Shown in pieces: positions 34,601 to 61,600 of a stretch of 64,000 bases of DNA. Numbering within the stretch: the first letter of the stretch is position 1; each line of letters begins with the position of its first letter. The translations under genes and the position numbers were made by a program. The notes beneath the pieces were generated by a model that was given only the letters and a program-made list of their open reading frames with translations, was not told the DNA's origin and did no database searches. Origin of the DNA: Beroe forskalii (lineage: Eukaryota; Ctenophora; Nuda; Beroida; Beroidae); the NCBI GenBank assembly GCA_011033025.1, contig WFMF01000075.1, positions 1-64,000 on the forward strand, in the 5' to 3' direction.

Positions 34601-37600
34601 GCGCGATGATTCCAATTACCACTGTTAATCCTCATTACCACTGCTAATCAGCGTGATAATTCAAATTACCACTGTTAATCCTCATTACCACTGCTAATCA
34701 GCAGATAATTCCCAAATCATTTGGATTTTGAGGACCGTCCGATAGCAGAAGCAGCACGTATCAGCGGTCGTAACAGCAAGAAAGAGCGCTTATCACCTCT
34801 CTTGGCGGTGTCTCTGTGTCTCCCTTACCCTCTCCCTCCTCCTCCCCCTCCTCCTCCTCCTCCTCCTCTTCTAAACAGCAGGTACCCTCATCACTATCGT
34901 CAGACTCCCCTCCACACGCCATCCCAGACAGCAGAGCGTCAGTGTCAGACCTCACCGGGATCTCATCCTCAGTCTCCGTGATGATGATGTGGTCCTCCAC
35001 AATGGACTTTGGGAGGGGGGAGGAGAGAAGAGGGGTGCTCTCCCCAGGGGGGAGGGGGGCTGCCTCCCCAGGGGGGAGAGTAGGAGGGAGGGGAGGAGGG
35101 ATATTAGGAGGAAGAGATGGAGTGTCGGAGAGGGAGGAGGGAGGGAGTCAGGAATGGGAGGTGGCTGGTTGGAGGAGGGGAGAGGAGGAGGGAGGGAGTC
35201 AGGAATGGGAGGTGGCTGGTTTGCTCGGAACTTGGGCTGGTTCTCCTGAGTGGCGGCCCTCCTGAGAGGCAGGGCCGGGGGCTCCTCCTCCTCCTCCTCA
35301 GGGGGGGATGAGGGGGCGGGGTCAGACATCACCCCTCTCAGAGCGCAGTGCTCCTTCCCTTTCTTCTTGAGGGGCGTGTCCAGCGGCAACCCCAGCTCTC
35401 CCAGCATCTGTTCTCGGTACTTCTTCTCTTTAGCCGTCATCTCAGTCCTCTTCACTTTGGGAGACTTAGGGGCTTTCTGGGTCTTCTTAGAGGGCTTCGG
35501 AGAGGTCAGATTGTCCTTGGAGCTCTGCTTGCCTTCCTTCTTCTCCTTCTTGTTTTTGGATTTGGTGGCGACCAGCGACATTCCAAAGAGTCCTATCTGG
35601 TTCATTGCATCATCTCGAGACTTGAGGTCCTTGTCAGAGGGAGTCTTTGAGGACGTCATCGTGATAAGAGGAGGATCAGATCCTGGTGGAAGGTTGCACA
35701 GGAGTTACACAGGAGTTACAGAGGAGTTACAGAGGAGTTACAGAGGAGTAACACAGGAGTTACACGCAGTGTGGAGTTGGAGTGTATTAGAGGAGTGAGG
35801 AGGGGTGTATTAGCATAAACACCGATCATACAAGGGACATCTCACATTCTCCATAGTCTGTGAGGGTATAATTACTGTGGGGACATGATCAATCATTGAA
35901 TGAGTATTCAACACAGACATAATTACTGCCTGCTCAGTTATCACGGAGATAATTACTTAATATAACGGCTTATTGAAGAGCGAAATGGAACGATATTCCA
36001 CAGCACCATTTGTAAAAAGTCAAGGTTAACAATCGCAAGGATACTCCACTGTAAAAAGTCAAGGTTAACAATCGCAAGGATACTCCACTGTAAAAAGTCA
36101 AGGTTAACAATCGCAAGGATACTCCACTGTAACATACAAGGGGCACTCTGAACTATAGATAGAATCTGGGACAATGGTACCCTAAACTTTGTGAACAATG
36201 CCAAGGGTCACGTGTCTATGCAGAATATGCAGAATATCCACTGTAGGAATGGAAGCAGTACATGTAAAGTATGTTGTTTGTGAGGGGCGCTGAAAACCAC
36301 ACAACAGAGCATTGCTGAGATGTTGCAGAGCCCTCTATCATCGACCCTTATTATGGGAGTCATAATTACAGAGCTGAACAAAAGAGATATTTGGAGGACT
36401 ATCTGACTAACAAAACAAGGAGCTATCTGACTAACAAAACAAGGACCTATCTAACAAAACAAGAAGCTATCTGACTAACAAAACAAGGAGCTATCTGACT
36501 AACAAAACAAGGAGCTATCTAACTAACAAAACAAGGAGCTATCTAACTAACAAAACAAGGAGCTATCTGACTAACAAAACAAGGAGCTATCTGACTAACA
36601 AAACAAGGAGCTATCCGACTAACAAAACAAGGAGCTATCTGACTAACAAGGAGCTATCTGACTAACAAAACAAGGAGCTATCTAACAAATCAAGAAGCTA
36701 TCCGACTAACAAAACAAGGAGCTATCTGACTAACAAAACAAGGAGCTATCTGACTAACAAAACAAGGAGCTATCTGACTAACAAAACAAGGACCTATCTA
36801 ACAAAACAAGGAGCTATCTGACTAACAAAACAAGGAGCTATCTGACTAACAAAACAAGGAGCTATCCGACTAACAAAACAAGGAGCTATCTGACTTACAA
36901 AACAAGGAGCTATCTGACTAACAAAACAAGGAGCTATCTGACTAACAAAACAAGGAGCTATCCGACTAACAAAACAAGGAGCTATCTGACTTACAAAACA
37001 AGGAGCTATCTAACAAAACAAGGAGCTATCTGACTAACAAAACAAGGAGCTATCTGTCTAACAAAACAAGGAGCTATCTGGCTAACAAAACAAGGAGCTA
37101 TCTGACTAACAAAACAAGGAGCTATCTGACTAACAAAACAAGGAGCTATCTGACTAACAAAACAAGGAGCTATCTGACTAACAAAACAAGGAGCTATCTG
37201 ACTAACAAAACAAGGAGCTATCTAACAAAACAAGGAGCTATCTGACTAACAAAACAAGGAGCTATCTGACTAACAAAACAAGGAGCTATCTGACTAACAA
37301 AACAAGGAGCTATCTAACTAACAAAACAAGGAGCTATCTGACTAACAAAACAAGGAGCTATCTGACTAACAAAACAAGGAGCTATCTGACTAACAAAACA
37401 AGGAGCTATCTGACTAACAAAACAAGGAGCTATCTGACTAACAAAACAAGGAGCTATCTGACTAACAAAACAAGGAGCTATCTGACTAACAAAACAAGGA
37501 GCTATCTGACTAACAAAACAAGGAGCTATCTGACTAACAAAACAAGGAGCTATCTGACTAACAAAACAAGGAGCTATCTACTAACAAAACAAGGAGCTAT

Positions 37601-40600
37601 CTGACTAACAAAACAAGGAGCTATCTGACTAACAAAACAAGGAGCTATCTGACTAACAAAACAAGGAGCTATCTGAACTCTGGGACTAACGTGATAGAGC
37701 TTTGTGCTCAGTGTACACGCGCATATAAAGGTTAAAGGACTGGTGATAAGAATAGGCAGAGCTGTGATGACGTCATCAACACAACACAAAGCAGTGGGTA
37801 GTTGACACAAGCTACTGTAGTAGAAGTAATAGGGAGTAGGGCAGGTTGAATATGAATAAAAGATGGGGCTCCTATAGCTCCTTCATCAACCTCCCCGTAA
37901 TTATATACACAGAAACTACAGCGGCAAGTTGTCACGTCATGAGTGTTAACGTGAAGCCACTAGACCCTAATGAAGGTATTTATAAAGGAGCAACTCACTG
38001 AGGATGTGAAGGAATGTGCTCCATAAAGCCATGTTTTAGAGTTGCAGTACAGTCACCTACAGTAGCTTGTGTCAAGTATACAGTCACCAGAAAACTACAG
38101 GGCAAACAGATGACCGTACACCTATTTAAAGGTACTCCTATAGATTCTAGTGCACAATTAAATCTAGAATGGCAACAAAGTCATGCGGTAAAGATGAACA
38201 GAATTCATGTCAAGTTCGCCAATTTCCCTCATCAAAGCACCTGCATAGATAAGACTTTAAGTTCGACAATGAGCTCGCCTCGTTTAAGCACCTTTTCAGA
38301 TAAAATTTTGGTTCGATAATGAGCTCGCCTTGTAGATAAGAATTTGGGCTCGATAATGAGCTCGCCTCGTCCATTACCCAACTAAGAGGTGGTCTCAGCT
38401 TTGCCTCGACCCTGTCAGCTGTGGAGTGTGGAACACGGCCACCACTTCGCCATGTAACCGCTTAATAACTACTCCCTGGCCAATGGGCTCCGCGCGATTC
38501 AATCGTTTATGCAAAAACAACCGAATTATTCGTTATGATTAACAACCAGTGTTACATGATTATTCATTTGGGGTCGTAATTAGTCACTGCGTTATAGCAA
38601 AATCGAAATTTATTTATTTGAACTTGAGACTGTCTTGTGTCTAATGCCTAACAAAACTTTCCATACTATAAATTTCCAAGGTAAAATAAAAGTTTCAAAA
38701 TAAGTGCGATTGCAATTAAAAACGATCTTCATAAAAACCAAAAAAGCTAAGACGTGTTATACTGAGTAAAAGGAGGATATTAAAAGAAAAGAAAATATTA
38801 AACTAAAAACAGGAAATGACCTCGGACCACTGAAAGCAGCTCTCTCTCTCTCTCTCTCTCTTCACACGCTCAATTCTCAGTTAAAATCTGACCAAGGAAA
38901 GGCACATGGGACAGTAGGCACTTGAAATGACGTCATTATCAGGGTGTATAGTGTTGAGTTGACGCTTTCAAAGCGCCTTCCCAGGCAGCCTATAGAGAAG
39001 ATGAAGGACTAAGCACACTCTACACAGCGAGGGAGTTGGGGTCAGCAAGGGAAACGAAGGGCTGATCACACTTTTAAAACACGGTTAATTGGGGTATCAA
39101 GAACTGGTTAGAGTTCACCGCGGAGTTCGATTGTGAGCCAGAGGGCGAGTGCCGCGGGATTGAGTCCCAGGGTGAAACAAGAAATAATAGGGCATGATGC
39201 TGCAGTCCCAACACCAGGGTAGAAATAATAGGGCATAATGCTGCAGTTCTGATCAAGGAATACGTGACTGGAAGAGGTTGCTGCTCAGTGCTCCCCCTAT
39301 CGATGTCAGCAGTTCAATATAAGACTGCGCAGGAAAAACAGATGTGCGTTATTTTCAGGGTTTAGCGTGGTCACCCTAAACAGTTCGCACAACTTTTCCA
39401 GTATACAGAAACAACGGTTTAGAGTTACATGCCTAAACTTGAGTAGAAGCAGAACTACACAGCAATCTCTGGTACGGTAACAATTTCCAGGATAAATATA
39501 GCTATCCCCGGTAACTGGGAACAACATGAAATGTAGCTAGGGCGGGAATGTAGATTATTGACTGTAACCAGATCAAAATCACACTTCTGTGAGGGTCACA
39601 TGACCCTTTGTGTTACAGGAGCTTCGATTCAGCTCACTGCTCACTCGCAGTCGGTTCCTAGCGCAGGACCATAAACGCTAATACTCTCGGATTTTGGTTA
39701 AATTTTTGCTTTAAGTATGTCGTGTTCATTAAAACAGACAATAGGTTTGACAGTTCATGGAACTGTTATAATCTTGATTCCATCGCCACATTTCCAGAAT
39801 ACTTGAGGATACTCACCGGATAATTCGTGAGTATCTTGAAGAGCTTGCACGTCCGAAAAGAAGGGGTTCGTAGTGCTCATCTGAAATGACAGAGACTTTG
39901 ATTTCTGAGAATCAGACCCATTTCACACAAAAATAATGATTTCTCTGGCAGTTAGCGACAAATGAGCGGAAATTTTTAAGTAAAATGACACTCGACAGGT
40001 CGCAGGTTGAAAGTGCTAATGAGCACCTGGACACAGAACCTCTAAAAAGTGGGTGTGTCACTTTTCATTCAAATACATCTCATAAATAAAGTGCCATTTA
40101 AGTGCCACTCATTGAGCTGGAGAATGAGTCGTTGCCGGGGGTGTTGTGGAGGGGCGGTGGCTGCGTGAGGGGCAGAGCCGGGGGCGCTAGCGGGGGCGGC
40201 ACCCCCGGGATGGGCGGAGGTCCGAGGACGGGCGGCGAGTTCAGCACGTCACTCACAGTGGGAGGGTGGGGCGGGGGCAGGGTCGGCACGGGGCCTGACA
40301 GCTGAAACAAACACGGTTTAGTAGCAGGTTTATGTACAATCGTGCGACACATTGCACGCTAGTATTCTCTATCAAAATACCACTAATTTCCAAGAGGGGG
40401 AATTCCCATCTCTCACCAACTCCTATCAAAACACCACTCCTTCCCATCTCTCACCTGCTCCTTCTATCAAAACACAACATTTCCCATCTCACCTGCTCGG
40501 TTTTAGGCATGGTGGTGACTCACCTGCTCGGTTTTAGGCATGATGGTGACTCACCTGCTCGGTTTTAGGCATGGTGGTGACTCACCTGCTCGGTTTTAGG

Positions 40601-43600
40601 CATGGGGCCACCTGCCTTTTAGGCATGATGGCGGCTCACCTTTTTAGGCATGCTGGTGACTCACCTGCTCGGTTTTAGGCATGGTGGTGACTCACCTGCT
40701 CGGTTTTAGGCATGGTGGTGACTCACCTGCTCGGTTTTAGGCATGGTGGTGACTCAGCTGCTCGGTTTTAGGCATGGTGGTGACTGGAGGGAGGGGCGGG
40801 GGTCGGGACGGCACCAGAGTCTCCGTCCCGTCGTTAGGCCGCCTTGGCAGGGGCGGCTGACTCCGGCTGCTGCTGTGAGGGCTGTGCGACTGAAGTAGAG
40901 TGGTGTCAGAGTGGTGTCAGAGTGGGGTGGTGTCAGAGTGAAGTGGTGTCAGGGTGCAGTGGTGTCAGAGTGAAGAAGTGTCAGAGCAGGGTCGTTCGAC
41001 TGGGAAGAGTTAATCTTCAGAAGTTATCGTAGTTTGACATGGTCAGCTGAAGACTTCCTTCTGAGGATGTTTCCTGAAAAAGTAACACCCAAAATATTCC
41101 CAAATTGAGTGGCCCTTCTCCTCTATCCACCACAAACCTGTTGTTGCTTGGCAGTCTGCCCCTTGCGGTCCCCTCGGTCTGGAATGGGAGGAGCACCAGG
41201 TTGAGGGGCTGCCGCCCGTCCACTCGGCCCTGCTCCGTCAGCCTCCCGCGCATTCACACTCCCCTTACACCTGACAGTGGGGTGGTGTCAAAGCGGTGTC
41301 AGGGTGGTGTCAGAGTGTTGTCAGGCCTAAGCTAAGGGTTGTGTTGTGTCAGAGTTAAGTGGTGTCAATGTGAAGTGGTGTCAGAGTGGGTTGGTGTCAG
41401 AGTGGAGTGGTGTCAGCATGGAGTGGTGTCAGGGAGAATGGAAGTGGTATTAACAAAGATTGGGGTCAGAGTAAAATGGTGTCAGGCTGGAGTGGTGTTA
41501 GAGTGGAGTGATTTCAGAGTGGAGTGATGTCAGAGTGAAGAGGTGTCAGTTTGGAGTGGTGTCAAGGAGAATGGTGTCAAGGAGAAGTGGTGTCAGAGCG
41601 GTGACAAAGTGTTGTCAATTGCTCGAAGTGAATAAAATTCTGAACATAAAATGCTTTAATTTAACGGTTATATATAACAAAATGCTGTTTTAAGTCCCAT
41701 CCCATAACACTGTTGAGTTTCCACCTTTTAAACACACATATCTCACACAGAGTGATGCCCCTATTCTCCTTACACTCGCTAACAGAAGCTATTCTTATGA
41801 ACAAGTCAAGGTTGGCTAATAACGTGGAGTGTGGGCGTGTATTGGGTATTAGCGGGGGAGCAATAACACTATTCAGTGCGTCATTAGCCCGCTAAGTAGT
41901 GCCTACAGAGGGGGAATAATACAGCACTGCTTTCAGGGAGAGCAGGGCTCCTTTGAGTTAAAAGCTATTTAACAGCCCATTCAAAATACCAATGGTTTGA
42001 CATCACACTCGGGCATAATTCTACCACATCTGTTTGAAGTGTGGCTTTATAATCGTTAGGGAGAATGAGGTGACGACGAGGCTTCGTTTGAAAGGGCTTA
42101 TAATGCTGACTGCAACCAACTTACCTTGAATTAGTTAAATAGCTTGAAATAGAGTGATAGTGAAATAAGTAATCGAATACAGCTAATCAATAGTTCAAAC
42201 TCTGTGAGTTTAAACAGATTTATCGCAGAGTAATGCTGGCTGCTAGCTTAATATTTCGCCTCACCGACGCATGGACGGAGAGAGTTAGCTAAGAACAGCA
42301 GTATTTGAAGTTGGTTAGAGATTATAAGATTAGCAGATATGAACTTGGAAACCGATCATTGAAATCCTAAGGGCGCACAGGACGGTTTTGCTCTGAATGC
42401 TCCAGGCGTTAAGTTAGAATTCAGCCCTTCACACGTCGGGGAATGGGATCATGACTTGGAGTAGCAGCGCCTCCCACGGGTCGGTGTTACGAACCCCGGC
42501 ACACTACGAGTGCAGGAGCTACGAGCTATTTATCTTATTTCCCACGCACAGACGCATTTCATGGGTCAGGAATGCTGACAATGATGCATTGGGTAACCAT
42601 TAGGAATGCTGACAGTAATGCTTTTTACCCAGGAGGGGAAATAGAAAGTGGCTTAGCTTTACCTCGCTTTTTGGAGAGTAGTAACACTGCCTCTAAAGGG
42701 TTGGGGGTTCAAAATCTAATAAAACTTTAACTTGAATAATGAATTTAATTAAAATTAAACTTTATAACCATCGTTAGAATTACATAAAAATGAAATATGA
42801 GTCTTAGATTTATACATGATTTAACATCGTAGAATAATGAATAATTTCACATAGTAGAAACTGTTTTTGGAGTGAATGTGAGTGTACAGACGAAAGCGAA
42901 TGTATTGCGTACTCATAGAAATGCCCCATACTCGGAGATTTACTCAGAACACGGAATGAAGTTGGAATGGGAGGGATAACAGTACACACTGGGGTAAGAA
43001 TGCATGATTCTATCACATAAGAATTTATGATATTATCTGAACACTTCATCTGCGGTTTAGGTGTTCAAATCTGAAGGTGTTATCATGAGATGAGAATGTC
43101 TGACTACTTCAGATCACAGCTTTTCATAAGTCAGTGTTGGGTTGTTGAGACTATAAGAATGTCTAATGAGAATTAGGTACTTCTAATTGAAATGATTCTA
43201 GTGTCTGTACTCCTGAAAGATCTCGTAAGAATGTCTGAAGAATGTCTAAATAACATTTTCTAACAACAATGTCTGATGATAATATCAGATAAGAACTCAC
43301 TGGAAGAACTGATTAGAATTTCAGATAAGAATGTAAGTGTTTACTCATTACTTCATTAAAATAATTTACTCCTAAAAGAACTCACTGGAAGGGATCCACC
43401 TCAACATGCTCGTAGTCCTTTACTTGCGCCCTACAGAAGGGGCAAGTCAGAGCAGTGCTCTTATCATGCTCCTGCCATTGGAACAGACACTCAGAGCACA
43501 GCAAGTGGGAGCAGGGCTGTAACTTGACGTCCTTATCATTCTCCTGGCAGATCTGAAGGGGCATTATTCCATATATGGTATAATGTGAGGGGTATTATTC

Positions 43601-46600
43601 CTTATTAGTGATAATGAGGTACTCCACTCAGAGCACAGCAAGTGGGAGCAAGGCTGTAACTTGACGTCCTTATCATTCCCCAGGAAGATCTGCAATAGGG
43701 AACACTCATAAATTAGGCAGCGCACAAGCCTGATCAATCCTCCAATTTGAGGTTATATGAAAGGCATGGTACTCTTTTGATACATATTTCTATGGGGGGG
43801 GGGGCATGAGGACGAAGACATTCGTCATAAAGGTTGAATGCCTTAGACCAAACCAACCATTATTCAACTTTTATATATCAGATCTGGTCTTAGATTATAC
43901 AATTTCTAAACAATTCGATATTCTTAACAATAGATTATCATATTTGGGAGGGGGGTTCAGCGCCAACACAGCAACAGTCTAACATTCCATCATCTGAGAT
44001 TGGTTAGGTTATGTGTCAATAATATTAAGTGTATAACACCTTACACAGTTATTACACAGTTTTAATCAGCAGCACTGAAGTGACAATATCATCAAGAATT
44101 ATCCTAATAAATTAATAGAGTATAACCGTCTTCTTCTTACAAAGAACCTAAGTACTAAATTATCTTTATAACAAGGAAGCATGAAGTTCATTAGACCTAG
44201 CCCTCGTAGGTTACATGAGTAATTTGAAGTATTGTGGCAGTTGACACTGGTTACTCAGTAAGTCTGGGGTTTAACCTGTGGATTAATGGTTAAATTGCCT
44301 CATCCTGCTGAAATATAAAGACAGGATAATCGTCCTATTTACATTCAAATGTCGATCTCTTTGACCAGGTTAAAATTACATCAGATATTCCGTTTACCTG
44401 TGCGCGCCGCGCGTCAAATCTACAAGTCTACAAGATAAACGCGCGTGATTTCGATGTGCTAACAATTTGTGGTTACGCGGAAATTAGCGCAAAATTAAAG
44501 CACACCAGCGCGGCGCGCAGCATTCTGTTTACCTTTTGCTGCCTTGCGCGCATGTAATTCTATTTTCTATCATCACTCGCAGCCCCACCCAACACAACAA
44601 AATATAACCACAGAAGTGTTTAACTGCGCAGGGTTTTAAAAGAGCGGGGAAAGGAAACCATTCGTTGCAAAAATTATCCTGTGCACTGCTAGGGCTGTAA
44701 TTATGAGGAAACAAGGTAGTCATATGTGACATGTCGCTATATCTCAGTACATTGCTAGTATAGAGGAAACTAGGAGGGCGTGATGACGTCATTGTCAGGA
44801 CTCAGAGGGGTCAAATGACAACGTCAACTGGTAACTTCCGGGAAAAGAGAAACTTTCTTCCGGTGTAGAAAGTAACCGAATATCAGGTATACAATTAAAC
44901 AGTAAACACGATGTAATTTCACACACGAAGTGTTATTGGCAATGTGCCCAAGTGTATTATCCGCAATATAAACAGAGTTCCCATACTCAGAGGGAATAGG
45001 ACAATGTTATCCGGGGATGAAATAGGAAGTTATGGGTTCAGTGTGTCAATTAAACACCGATTTGGTGAGGGAATCAGGAAGTAATTGAGAGTTACTATTG
45101 ATAACCGATATTTATAAATGATAAATAAATTCAAGTAATTTGTTACCCGCTTAGACATATCACATAGTTAAATATAACCCCGAATTTTCAATACTAAATG
45201 GAGGGATAATTTGTAGCACTAAATGGGGGGCAAAACTACTAAATGGGGGGGGGGTAATCTTTCTTCATTTTGTCAGTTTCCTGCCTCAATAGTACGGTTT
45301 ATCCCTAGAATTTACCTGTAAATATGGAACACGCGATCAGATGGAAATCCCCATAATTTTAATCAAATAACTTTTAACACGGGGGGGAAGCATTTGATTT
45401 GACAAAATCAAATTATCATGCTGTCTTAGACAGATCCCTCAAATCCAAGTATTTCAAAGAATATCTGATTCTTTCCAGGATGACCATGTTGTCCTCGTAA
45501 GGACACATGATACGAGTAATTTGTATCACGCTTAGACATAGTTAAATATAACCCGAAAGGAATATGTTAGCCATTCAATAGCCATTAATAACCGATAATT
45601 AATTATCAGTTATTATGAGGGCTACAATAAGCATTGCTTATAGTAGCCCTCATTAAGCAACCAATACTTGATAATAGAGGGTTACTAGGACATGCACGGA
45701 GTTAATATAAATGGGGGGGGTTATTGTACAAAACGGGGGGGGGGGATAATTTGTTACACTAAATGGGGGGGATAATTTAACAATAAATGGGGGGTACTGC
45801 TAATCTTCTCTATTCCATCGGATCGTGACTCCAAACACCTGCAATTAACTGATTAAGTTTCCTGGCTTTGAGTTTTATCTGCTCAATGTAAAAATAATAC
45901 GTAATATCCCTGGGATTTACCTGTAAGTACTGATATGGCAGTTACCTATCAGCAATGAGAGTTACCTGTAAGTTATCTGTCAGTACTGGCATTTGACTGT
46001 AAGTACTGACAGTCAACTGTAACTCGTTAGTCGCAACTACACAATATGAAACACCCGATCCGAGGTAAGTCCCCAAAATGTTAATTAAATACCTTCTAAA
46101 ACAGGGGGGGGGCATTTGATTTGATAAAATCGAATTATCATGCAGTATTTCACAGATTTTTCACCAAGTCCAAGTTTGTCAAAGAATATCTGATTCTTTC
46201 CAGGATGACCATGTTGTCCTCGTAAGGACCACATGATGCAAGTAATTTGTATCACGCTTAGACATAGTTAAATATAACCCGAAAGGAATATTTTAGCCAT
46301 TCAATAGCCATTAATAACCGATAATTAATTATCTGTTATTATGAGGGCTTCTATAAGCATTGCTTATAGTAGCCCTCATTAAACAACCAATACTTGATAA
46401 TAGAGGGTTACTAGGAAATGCACGGAGTTAATATAAATGGGGGGTAATTATACAAAACGGGGGGGGTAATTTCAATACTAAATGAGGGATAATTTGTAAC
46501 ACTAAATGGCGGGGTTGCTTCTACTAAATTACTAAATGGGGGGGGTACTTGTACAAAACGGGGGGGTCTTTTCAATACTAAATGGGGGGTGGTATTACTA

Positions 46601-55600: not shown

Positions 55601-58600
55601 TCTTTATTAGAAGTCACAGTGAGGAATGGGGTATTCATTAAATCTTCATTAATCACTCTACCAAATCTTCATGAAATTTAAAGTTAGCTTTTAAATCAGT
55701 CTTGAGCAGTGATATACCTAATGAAACATAAAACTGAAACCTATAAGGAATATCTAGATCCCCTCCCCGAATCCCCAGCCCTCCCCACCCCCGATGACTC
55801 ACTATCCGTCTTGAGCCCCCAAGATGAGCGCCTCACAGAGGCTCTTGTTTTGAGGAATAGTTTGCAGAATCTCATGCTCACTTGTCACGTAGCCAATAGC
55901 CCAGAGACCCAGCCGTGTACAAGACAGCCGGAATATGTACCTGGAATAAGGTACAGTGTAAGGTACAGTGTACAGTGTACCTGCCCATCTTGGAATAAGG
56001 TAAAGTTTAACGTCTTGTTGGTGTAAGGAAAAGTATATAGTGTATGGGGGGTCTGTATATTGTACAGATGTACACTGTACAGTGCACAATGTAGAGTATA
56101 TACTCTATTTTATATTCCAAGGTTTCTGTCCAGTTGGGAATAATATGAACCTGTTGGGAAGGGTATAATTCGTATAATAAAGGTGATGTGAGAAGAAGCA
56201 AGGTACAAGGTACAAGCCACCAGGGTACCAAGCCAATGTACCTTGTACTGGGGAATCTGCACCTGAGAAAAAACTGTTAGGCTGTCTGAAAGAAACTTCC
56301 CCTAAGTCCCCCTGCTGAGCATGTTTTAGAATGTTTTCGGATAATGGATATAATAAAGCTCAGCCGTTATTTCTGTTGAAAGTCCCCATCTCTCTGTACA
56401 TTGCCCACCTGCACTTTAAAGACTCCTGAGAGAAGATAAACTCCTTGCTCAACATTGATAGCTGGAATTTAGGAGCTGCCTCAATGCTCTTTACACACAA
56501 TCAATCCGAATCAGGTCTTATAATTCCTGCGTACACACTACACTGTACAGTGTACACTATACACATTGCAGTGTACACTGTACAGTGTACACTATACACA
56601 TTGCAGTGTACACTGTACAGTGTACACTATACACATTGCAGTGTACTTCACCATTTCGTAATATAGCCTAATTCTATTTCCTGCTCGACGGTACAATGCT
56701 CTCATAGAAGTAAGTTGGTGATATCATTATCATGTCTTATAATGGTAAGTTTATGTTGTCAGCATCACGCGTAAAATAGTAAGTTGATGTTGTTAGCATC
56801 ATGTTGATCCCGTCATTTCATCAAACCGTCCATTTTCTATGTGGTATCACGTGTATTATTCCCTGCTCTCAAAAAACGTGTAAAAATCTGAGTTTGAGTA
56901 GAAAATGAAGGCAAAAATAGCAAATAACCATTAACCATTCTTACCCCCGATAATGACGTCACCTCCTTGTACCTTGTACGCGAGGTATATAAATATTATT
57001 TTCACGCTGGTGACGGATTAACAGGGCAGATTTAATTATCATCTAACATAGACATTATGTTTCCCCAACACCTCGACAATAACGTTTGATACAAGATGTG
57101 CGAGGTTTGTAGGGTTTCCTTCCCCTTTCGGAGTTTCCATAAATAATAGTAAGTTGCAAAGATTAGAGGGGGGTGTAAATTGTAAATGTTCAAACACGGG
57201 ACTACGTGTTAGTATCAGGAATAAAAACACTGTTCCGATTGCAACATTTCACAAAATTTCAAAAAATAACACTCCTCAAAATGAGTTAAGATAATCAAAC
57301 TGGATCCAGTATAGGTTTACTCACGTCCCAGGCTTGTGGATGTACTTGTGGAGTCGCTCCTTCACTTCCCCATAAGTCAGGAAGGCCTGGTACCCAGTGT
57401 GAGTGACAGCCAGCATCTTCCAGTTTATTAGGAGCGTGTCCCAGGGCTGGAAGAGTCGCGTGAAGACGTCGTACTCGAACACCGACACCTGAAGAAATCA
57501 CTCGTGGAGATAGAATACTGTTTTTACTGTTTTTACTGTTTAAAAGTTTCTTTACTGAAAGTTACGCCATTCTCATGGGTTGTAGTGGTAATTTGATGAA
57601 TTGATGATGTCATTTTCTGGAGTTTTAGTGGGGAGTTGATGATGTCACATCAAACTGCAGCCCCCAAATCTGGATGATGATAATTAATTTGAAGTGTGTT
57701 GACTTGGCACCCAGATTACAGCATCCCCTCATTATAATGCAGTAGCAGTACAAAGGCCCCCTCTAATTATACACTGCACACCCCCACACAGCAAGGGTGA
57801 CGTCATTATCAGGGGTTAGAGTGGTGTGTTGGTGACGTCATTATCAGGGGTTAGAGTGGTGTGTTGGTGACGTGATTATAAGGGGTTAGAGTGGTGTGTT
57901 GATGACGCTATTATCAGGGGTTAGAGTGGCGAGTTAGTGACGTCATTATCAGGGGTTAAAATGGTGTGTTGATGACGTCACACAGCCACTTCTGCAGCAA
58001 TCAATAATCACAGCATCCAGGGATATGTATCCATTGCTCATTAATTGACTTTGTATATTCAAATTAGTGGTGTCAAAGTGGTGTTGTGTCAGCTTGTATA
58101 TTGTCAAAGTTAAGTGGTTTCAGAGTGATTCAGTGTAAGTGTAAAGTGGTGTCACTGTAAAGTGGTGTCAGAGTAAAGTGGTGTCAGAGTAAAGTGGTGT
58201 CAGTGTGAAGTGGTGTCAGTTCGAAGCGTTGTCAGAGTGGAGTGGTGTCAGAGTGAAGTGGTGTCAGAGTGATTCAGTGTAAGTGTAAAGTGGTGTCAGT
58301 GTGAAGAAGTGTAAGTGTAAAGCGTTGTCATTGTGAAGTGGTGTCAGTGTAAAGTGGTGTTAAGTGGTGTCAGTGTAAAGTGGTGTCAGTGTAAAGTGGT
58401 GTCAGAGTGATTCGGTGTAAGTGTAAAGTGGTGTCAGTGTGAAGTGGTATCAGAGTGATTCGGTGTAAGTGTAAAGTGGTGTCAGTGTGAAGAAGTGTCA
58501 GTGTAAAGTGGTGTCAGTGTAAAGTGTTTTCAGTGTAAAGTGGTGTTAGTGTAAAGTGGTGTCAGAGTAAAGTGGTGTCAGTGTGAAGTGGTGTCAGTGT

Positions 58601-61600
58601 AAAGTGGTGTCAGAGTAAAGTGGTGTCAGTGTGAAGAAGTGTCAGTGTAAAGTGGTGTCAGTGTTAAGTGGTGTTAGTGTAAAGTGGTGTCAGAGTAAAG
58701 TGGTGTCAGAGTAAAGTGGTATAAGTGTAAAGTGGTATAAGTGTAAAGTGGTATAAGTGTAAAGTGGTGTCAGAGTAAAGTGGTGTCAGTGTGAAGTCGT
58801 ATAAGTGTAAAGTGGTGTCAGTGTAAAGTGGTATCAGAGTAAAGTGGTGTCAGTGTGAAGTGGTGTCAGAGTAAAGTGGTGTCAGAGTAAAGTGGTGTCA
58901 GTGTGAAGTGGTGTCAGTGTGAAGTGGTGTCAGTGAAGGAACTCACCATGTCGTTGTGGGTCAGGTCGATGGTTGACTTGAGAGCCATGGCCTCGTAACT
59001 ACTGGTGATAGGATGCACATTCGACAACGTCATTCTGAACTCCTTCCACGAGACGATCACTCTGAAAAACATATTCTCTAAAAATACATAAATTCTTGAA
59101 AATTCTTAATTTTTCTTGAGAAACCCCCCATTATCTCACGCACGATTCACATTTTAAAAAGACAAAATCACTCTAGAAATTTAGGCCGCATTTTTGACTC
59201 AAACCGTATCATCCAACATCCTGAAAGATAAGTCAATTTTGAAATAATTGTAAATCTTGCGTACAGTGTAAATGTAATCAGAAAGTTCGAGAAATTTTAC
59301 GATCATATTTCAAGCGACAAAAATAGAAGCTAGAATTGTAAATGTACAAGTTTTATATTTTGGAGGCAGATGTTTGAACGATTTGCTAACACGAGAGAAT
59401 TTCATACTTCATATCTGTCGGATTGACACCTGACACCGATAGAGCATGATTCCATGCTTCAAATATTAGTAGCATTTGAGCGTTTATAATCGGCATTCTG
59501 AACTTATAAGATCACACAATTTCATCATTTCAAATCATCACTAGATGGACTTTGCCTGGAACGCTGAGTTGATTTAACTTCAGGATTTCACTGTCAAAAT
59601 GGAGCTATTAGCTTCATCCGAACTGCTGCTCAGTGTAGGGCTTTAAGTGGTTTGACTGCCAATCTACAAACTCCCGAGGTAGTACTATGAATAATCATAC
59701 GCGGTCCTTACTGTAAATAGAGAATTTTGTGGGGTCTGGTCGTTATCCACTTTTAATTTTTCAGATTTGAAATAATTTCAATTTTGTTAATGATAATTCT
59801 TAGATTGATAAATCTAATGGAAGACTGTCAGAATAAATGACATTTACAGTAAAGTTTGATATATGGAATATTGGAATGGTTTAAAGGACGGAGGTATTAT
59901 TGGTATCCTTAGCAACCTGCAACGGCTAAACAACATCGGCTAAGCAGACATCGACCTGAGGGATGAGGGCTAGGGGGCCTATCAACTGGATTGTGTCACT
60001 TCGGCTTGCTGCCGTATGCAACCATTCACAGAGCTCGCCCCAAGATTAGCACATTCGTAATCCAGCTCTGGGATTACAACTACTACCAGTGTAGTGAGAG
60101 TCTTACAGCAGGCAGTGGAGAGGGAGAAGAGTTGCAACTAGTTATTCTGTTAAGGTTTAACACTGTTATAACACTCAGTGCTGCTATTAGAGGGGTATAC
60201 AGTGTATAATTAAGTACAAGGTAGGTATACACATTGCACATTGTCTGGTTCAAGTACATCCGTGTATAATAATGTATACTGTATACTTGTATAGTGTATA
60301 ATGTATAATCCCTAAAATACATAATGTATACGATGTACACTATACTGTATAGTGTATAATGTATAATCCCTAAAATACATAATGTATACGTTATACACTA
60401 TACTGTATAATGTACATTGTCTAGTGCATTTTCTAGTGCATAATGGATTGTGTATACTGTATAATATAACATGTTTGTATCACTCTACTGCGTACGGAAT
60501 ATCAATGTATAATGTAAACTGTACGATGTATACTGCCTTGCGTAATTACGCAGGTATGCCTACGTTTGTAAAACTCATGAATGTACAATGTCCCTAGTGT
60601 GAAGATCAATGTTAAGCAATGAAGTCATAGCGGGAAATATTTTATTTTTATTCAATTCAAATGCGATAAATGTACAACTGTGTATTCACTTCCCATTGTA
60701 TAATGTCAATGATGAATAACTTAATCAATACCACACAGTATACACATCATAGGTCGATAAAAGAATAAACAGCCGTGGGTTGAAATCTGGTTGAAATCTG
60801 GTTGTGAGTAGCAGAACACACTCGATAAGAATTCATTTCCCTTCCAATGAAAGGTAACAATTGGTTTTCAGTCTTCATTCCTATGAGTTACACGCTCAGT
60901 GAGATCAGGAACATTGTCGAGAAGTGAAGGTTAGCCGTTAGTGTCATATGACATTTACGCCTTATAATTCATATTTTAAAGATGGAATTACAGCATTTTG
61001 ATTAATTACTATTAATTTAATCTAATCATTTCGCCATCATTGATGGTTCAATGACTCAAACACTCACTTGTCGCCGAAGTAGTTCTTCCAAAAGTCCGCA
61101 GCCTCTTCCTTCGTTATCCGGAATTCAGCCCCAATAAATATACTGAAATTATTAATCTTAATGAGCTTAGCATCGTACTGGGGTTCACAAGTTTGGGAGA
61201 GGTGATCAAGAGTTTTTTAATATGGTTTGTTTTGCATACAAATTAAAATTCAGCGAATTCTAGCATATAATAAAGGAATCACAACTTTTCATCAATGCAT
61301 GATGTACTATACATCACATTGTATATTTACAAATAGTAACTAAACTGTAAAGGCAGTGTACAAACGTAAACCTGTTAGGGAAGAGTGCGCGCAGTTCCAG
61401 AAGCATGTGGCTGATGTGAAGAGACAATCGCGTGAGGGTCTTCCTCTCCGTACTGTTCTCATTGAAAACATTCCGATTATCACGAAACAGCTTGATGCCA
61501 CGCTTCAACTGAAGTAGTGAATTGAATATCATTTTACAGTACAATTGCAATATGACAAATAATATATTGTTATAAACTGAAAATAAAAATTAACTTCTTG

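Follow-up and report, generated by a model that had tools for sequence, protein, structure and literature searches.

The cbl gene of the ctenophore Beroe forskalii lies on the minus strand of the window, which is the 64-kb start of contig C858 in a 216-Mb genome of 1134 contigs, and its exon J ends in a tandem array of 31-bp units that copies the exon end together with the adjoining 5' splice site (donor). The repeats span the exon-intron boundary and the units carry splice signals, two features of the minisatellites described in amphioxus as mirages. In the assembly, the donor that adjoins exon J has CT in place of GT, a loss that has a single base as its basis. The most probable reading, to which we give a probability of about 0.55, is that of an ordinary mirage with its exon-proximal donor broken in the assembled haplotype, where exon J would be forced either to be skipped or to run into a premature stop. 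The initial annotation, which had proposed that a splice donor was amplified and the original copy then lost, is partly supported.

Anatomy of the array at exon J of cbl

Tandem Repeats Finder (TRF) places the array at 40488-40785, with a period of 31, 10.1 copies, 88% matches, and a score of 456. The exonic copy, recovered by TRF, direct reading, and a genome motif search, is formed by the last 28 nt of exon J (AGTCACCACCATGCCTAAAACCGAGCAG; 40758..40785, minus strand), and nine further units occupy the intron (40493..40757, minus strand). The array of 31-bp units reported 3' of the exon is confirmed by direct reading and TRF, but it is not uniform. Six of the nine intronic units are 31 bp long, and three in the middle of the array are shortened to 25, 28, and 26 bp; four units are identical (GTGAGTCACCACCATGCCTAAAACCGAGCAG), and two differ by one base (the CT unit and the unit at 40554). 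The claim that each unit contains the exon end plus a GTGAGT donor holds for six exact CAG|GTGAGT sites (40726, 40695, 40664, 40585, 40554, and 40523) but not for three variants (AAG|GTGAGC at 40639, CAG|GTGGCC at 40611, and CAG|GTGAGA at 40492) or for the CT copy. Ten donor sites lie between 40757 and 40492, all with GT except the exon-proximal one, which has CT. With a generic weight matrix, each of the six exact donors scores 8.2 bits, above the ten other cbl donors of the gene model.

All 28 positions of the exonic copy agree with the most frequent unit, so that the array is either young or undergoing homogenization. Because the last 28 bp of exon J are already a repeat copy, no member of the array can be named the original. 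The donor and exon end have been amplified and the exon-proximal GT is absent from the assembly, as initially annotated, but "loss of the original" is inapt for a copy that is one array member among others, with the intron-proximal CAG|GTGAGA at 40492 intact. At its far end the array abuts GTGAGATGGG..., which recurs with a period near 38. This second repeat (40403..40492, minus strand; period 38-41) opens with CAG|GTGAGA...GATGGGAA and has a GAGCAG|GTGAG core in common with the array. It is probably the old start of the intron, and the far end at 40492 is as good a candidate for the old junction as the exon-proximal copy. A search of the 216-Mb genome with the 31-mer, allowing up to three mismatches, gave seven matches (such counts being lower bounds), all at the cbl array, and chance or a dispersed repeat was therefore rejected as its source.

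Tandem repeats with a period of at least 8 make up 42% of the window (26,910 of 64,000 bases, in 53 merged arrays), against 4.8% in 30 kinase loci and 7.4% in nine myosin stretches elsewhere in the genome.

The exon-proximal donor and the cbl gene model

By direct reading of the minus strand, the donor hexamer next to exon J is CTGAGT, its first two bases being C (40757) and T (40756). The nearest downstream GT is at 40726, 31 bp from the exon end, and read-through from exon J gives QLSHHHA before a TAA codon at 40737..40739 (minus strand). Since this TAA, within the first intronic unit, precedes the first intact donor, the stop is included with every downstream donor. A poison exon is conserved, its inclusion is regulated, and it sends the transcript to decay; what the cbl sequence shows in this regard is the stop. 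Exon J itself contains four GT dinucleotides, which score −1.9 or less, the best being at 40814 in phase 0. Skipping the 132-bp exon leaves the join of exon I to exon K in frame. The CT dinucleotide, the intact donor 31 bp on with a stop before it, and the frame-neutral skip were all correctly read in the initial annotation. A full cbl form that includes exon J could hardly be made from the assembled haplotype.

A simple series of steps would account for this arrangement. The exon J junction (28 nt of exon plus GTG) would have been tandemly duplicated through slippage or unequal exchange, for which the AG shared by the exon (CC-AG-TCACC) and the start of the intron (GTG-AG-A) may have served as a short homologous primer. 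A duplication seamed at this AG would give the copies a donor of the form GTGAG|T, each new copy carrying a strong CAG|GTGAGT. A G-to-C change at position +1 of the donor adjoining exon J would then leave the spliceosome with the downstream copies alone, each of which would add at least 31 nt and cross the TAA at 40739-40737, yielding a truncated or decayed mRNA. The only way seen to preserve the downstream frame and avoid a weak cryptic site would be to skip exon J. We infer the origin of the array, the reality of the changed base, and the splicing outcome from these features, and we would expect a hypomorphic or polymorphic allele rather than a designed switch.

The gene model behind these predictions joins 11 exons (A to K) into 447 codons with no stop, which suggests good base-level quality in this region. 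Exon edges were set by reading of splice signals, and those of exons A to H are additionally held by homology. The product contains Cbl_N, EF-hand-like, SH2-like, and RING domains (families PF02262, PF02761, PF02762, and zf-C3HC4, all above cut-off), the domain content of a Cbl E3 ligase, and 202 of 337 aligned residues are identical to CBL from the PDB (472 bits). On the minus strand, the RING exon H (43386..43552) was placed by RING search, homology, and frame join, and exon I (41138..41270) by its in-phase join to the RING exon. Exon J (40758..40889; exon 12 of the initial annotation) follows the acceptor CTCTACTTCAG, is in phase 0 and in frame with exons I and K, and encodes a segment that starts SHSPHSSS. 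Exon K (40257..40301) has the acceptor GTTTGTTTCAG and the donor ACT|GTGAGT, its downstream end being tentative.

Other parts of the gene also show duplications. Directly upstream of the RING exon, a partial duplicate of its first part with an acceptor-like CCCTATTGCAG (43621-43677, minus strand) is a decoy exon from tandem duplication, and a second copy of the RING exon end and donor (TTCCAGTGAGTTCTT; 43290-43310, minus strand) lies 85 bp 3' of the real donor. Further along, a long proline- and acidic-rich open frame (34764-35682, minus strand), presumed to be a later cbl exon, shifts to another frame near 35110-35150; no clear acceptor is visible by eye between the two parts, and the shift reflects a small indel or else an undetected intron. 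Pfam searches at an E value of 0.01 gave no match for a UBA-like last exon or for a piece of the 34955-35704 frame.

Donor arrays and splice junctions across the genome

Arrays of comparable design occur at other loci. The motif CAGGTGAGT repeated three times at 12- to 42-bp spacing occurs 423 times genome-wide and its reversed pattern 73 times, and CAGGTAAGT at 10- to 40-bp spacing has 166 matches against 13; triples that overlap are counted separately, and the matches listed come largely from a few big arrays. Single copies of CAGGTGAGT number 2375 against 1139 genome-wide, so that part of the excess of triples is plain motif frequency. Among the matches listed, we grouped the CAGGTGAGT triples into arrays at four places, one each on C2 and C110 and two on C77, and the CAGGTAAGT triples fall into seven further places. 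Flanks were read for three of the four, and all three arrays start inside an apparent exon end and copy that end together with its donor. On C2, an exon ending ...LDNVQ is followed by an intron filled with GACAATGTCCAG|GTG units, with the next exon, by eye, in phase past the array. The C77 and C110 arrays follow exons ending ...PTLVEGGVVPG and ...LLTNLTVH, with units that end in GTGGTGCCAG|GTGAGT and CTGTGCACAG|GTGAGT, respectively; Pfam at an E value of 0.01 matched neither of these two exon pieces. The exon-proximal GT is intact in all three arrays, as it is in a myosin gene with a two-copy array (L080).

The opposite end of the same C110 exon carries a 3' splice site mirage, in which 22 copies of a 62-bp unit (positions 1865-3250 of C110:118001-124000, locus L042) repeat the branch region, the acceptor, and the first ~33 nt of the exon. 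On C77, a very long donor array is found twice in opposite orientation, 33 kb apart (C77:417548-420317, plus strand; C77:453471-455730, minus strand). Inverted pairs of homeodomain and kinase matches on contigs C198, C695, C573, and C758 are perhaps uncollapsed haplotypes or inverted duplications. Genome searches gave 83 homeodomain matches, at most four per contig and with no cluster, and nine innexin-family matches. These counts and the genome size speak weakly against a lancelet as the source, and the Cbl identity to CBL does not point to one either.

The placement of arrays relative to splice junctions was measured in myosin genes, a less biased sample; kinase loci were discarded for this purpose, since most hold the entire domain in a single open frame. 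There were 69 myosin-head matches, 47 of them within the nine stretches fetched, and 36 of 38 neighboring exon pairs were used, two having no usable pair of sites predicted by the generic weight matrix. Tandem arrays are present in 9 of these 36 introns. They touch 2 of 72 intron ends and come within 30 bp of 4 more, versus 0.06 and 1.72 expected from random placement of arrays inside their own introns; combined, this amounts to 6 ends versus 1.79 expected (P = 0.0008). Of the 20 intron ends in cbl, one is touched by an array and six have one within 30 bp (0.07 and 1.76 expected); the touched end belongs to the array under study, so that only the six nearby ends are independent. Clustering at junctions is therefore supported by array placement.

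Coverage of the junctions gives a different result. Strict tandem copies span 5 of 102 junctions, compared with 61 of 600 positions drawn at random from introns and 13 of 600 exon positions, and a junction hot spot by coverage is unsupported, as junctions are not covered above introns generally. This comparison leaves out 7 of the 87 myosin junctions predicted, whose scores were weak, and counts the array under study among its 22 cbl ends; one match is a whole-exon duplication (L074), and two junction arrays detected by TRF (L076 and L080) are missed by the strict rule. Together, the two tests show arrays that gather close to splice sites but rarely extend across them. Both results would be explained by slippage within the simple sequence that flanks splice sites, combined with selection at the site itself, with no need for a dedicated mechanism.

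A 16-bp minisatellite (40897..40986, minus strand, detected by TRF) stops 8 bp short of the exon J acceptor. Its family (about TGACACCACTTCACTC) also occupies 41280-41598 and 58133-58935 of the window and positions 437-1296 of myosin stretch L073 (2506-3365 on the reverse strand), adjoining splice sites in several cbl introns and in a myosin intron of another contig and ending 7 to 12 bp from the junction. This repeat seems to be present in many introns and perhaps moves between them.

Alternative explanations and known junction-spanning repeats

Several observations weigh against a broken donor with forced skipping or truncation. The part of the claim that makes this array special hangs on one base, and the RING search of the genome found a single cbl locus, apart from a partial duplicate of that gene's RING exon, with no paralogue or haplotig in which to check that base. 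The possible frameshift near 35110-35150 hints at an imperfect consensus further along the presumed gene. The frame of exons I, J, and K is based on the open reading frame and phase, homology contributing nothing there, and the coverage of junctions by strict copies, given above, runs counter to a general preference for them. Amphioxus data, in the parts of the reports available, suggest that mirages leave splicing undisturbed (PMC3087553, PMC3902484).

An error of assembly or consensus, with a true GTGAGT beside exon J and an ordinary, harmless mirage behind it, is a serious though doubtful alternative. A lone base within a tandem array is where reads are readily misplaced, the other three donor arrays that were read all keep the exon-proximal GT, and one mirage in the draft amphioxus genome was, by the available part of its description, apparently aberrantly assembled (PMC3087553). 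The same cbl gene, on the other hand, runs for 447 codons with no stop. Moreover, the change is a substitution, whereas errors in long-read sequencing, if the assembly was built from such reads, are mostly indels. A wrong gene model, in which exon J ends elsewhere, for instance at CTG|GTGCCG (40814), and the array is always intronic, is very improbable: this GT is in phase 0 but scores −1.9 bits, and the open frame reaches a CAG like that before GT in most later units, in phase with exon K. A short form of Cbl exists in Drosophila, and exon J could be a regulated poison or alternative terminal exon, with either a short product (ending in LSHHHA*, retaining the tyrosine kinase-binding and RING domains and losing the C terminus) or the skipped form purposely used. 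The stop in the first intronic unit and the frame-neutral exon fit such a switch, but the stop sits in repeat sequence and its existence requires no selection, leaving this use improbable.

A broken donor in an otherwise ordinary mirage remains our preferred reading. A wider version of it is rather unlikely, namely, that a non-lancelet animal has widespread mirages that favor splice junctions and that the cbl mirage outlived its authentic donor, leaving decoy donors alone to flank the exon and changing the C-terminal isoforms. If true, cbl exon J would exemplify a minisatellite that has rewritten exon use in nature. How the spliceosome chooses among equal 5' splice sites is put to a natural test by arrays of identical donors, as is the way in which slippage changes introns and isoforms. 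If the lost donor is real, the cbl array shows the outcome when the exon-proximal member fails with nine GT copies waiting downstream; if arrays cluster at junctions across whole genomes beyond the lancelets, mirages contribute to splice site change more widely than the few described genes suggest.

The cbl array belongs to a described class of junction-spanning minisatellites, which includes amphioxus mirages and the variable number tandem repeats (VNTRs) of human CBS and ABCA7; the accounts that follow are those of the available parts of each report. The CBS VNTR has 31-bp units at c.1444_1467+7, in 16 to 21 copies at the exon 13/intron 13 boundary (PMC2630376), and higher copy number accompanies lower activity (PMC5188458). 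Its notation corresponds to 24 exonic and 7 intronic nt, so that, as in cbl, 31-bp units span the junction; the gene and sequence are unrelated, the equal unit length is coincidental, and loss of the authentic CBS donor is not mentioned in those parts. The ABCA7 VNTR (25 bp, intron 18) begins with the GT of the donor of exon 18; when one unit is retained, the reading frame shifts and meets a stop, and a longer VNTR increases skipping of exon 19 (PMC5954066). It resembles the cbl array in that it contains the exon donor and a retained unit brings a stop. In contrast, its unit apparently copies no exon end, its donor is canonical, and the skipped exon is 19 rather than 18.

Intron gain through AGGT tandem duplication (the Rogers model; ATP2A1, fission yeast, and potato RdRp; PMC4974935) likewise has AG|GT within the repeated segment, whereas in cbl no new intron is implied. 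Gain of the cbl intron by this route was rejected, as it requires both intron ends to lie in copies and the exon K acceptor TTTGTTTCAG is outside the array. CeRep25B of Caenorhabditis elegans is an intronic minisatellite statistically tied to alternative splicing (PMC4039745), but it is a dispersed family in introns beside alternate exons and is not described, in the text available, as a junction copy. The literature searched, which covers few subscription papers and was available in part, reports no junction-copying arrays beyond lancelets, humans, and the cases of intron gain.

The closest counterparts are the amphioxus mirages, minisatellite-like tandem duplications of an exon-intron boundary in Adh3, the globin genes BflGb6 and BflGb9, and TnC, and in imperfect form in PGBD5, with many units that carry AG/GT signals, that lie at the 5' or 3' ends of exons, and that measure 10 to 72 bp in Adh3 (PMC3087553, PMC3902484). 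Mirages are also marked by a length that varies between haplotypes, whereas the cbl array is represented by one haplotype. Like them, the cbl array duplicates the boundary together with its splice signals. It differs from them in that the exon-proximal donor is lost from the assembled cbl sequence, from which a disturbance of splicing is predicted.

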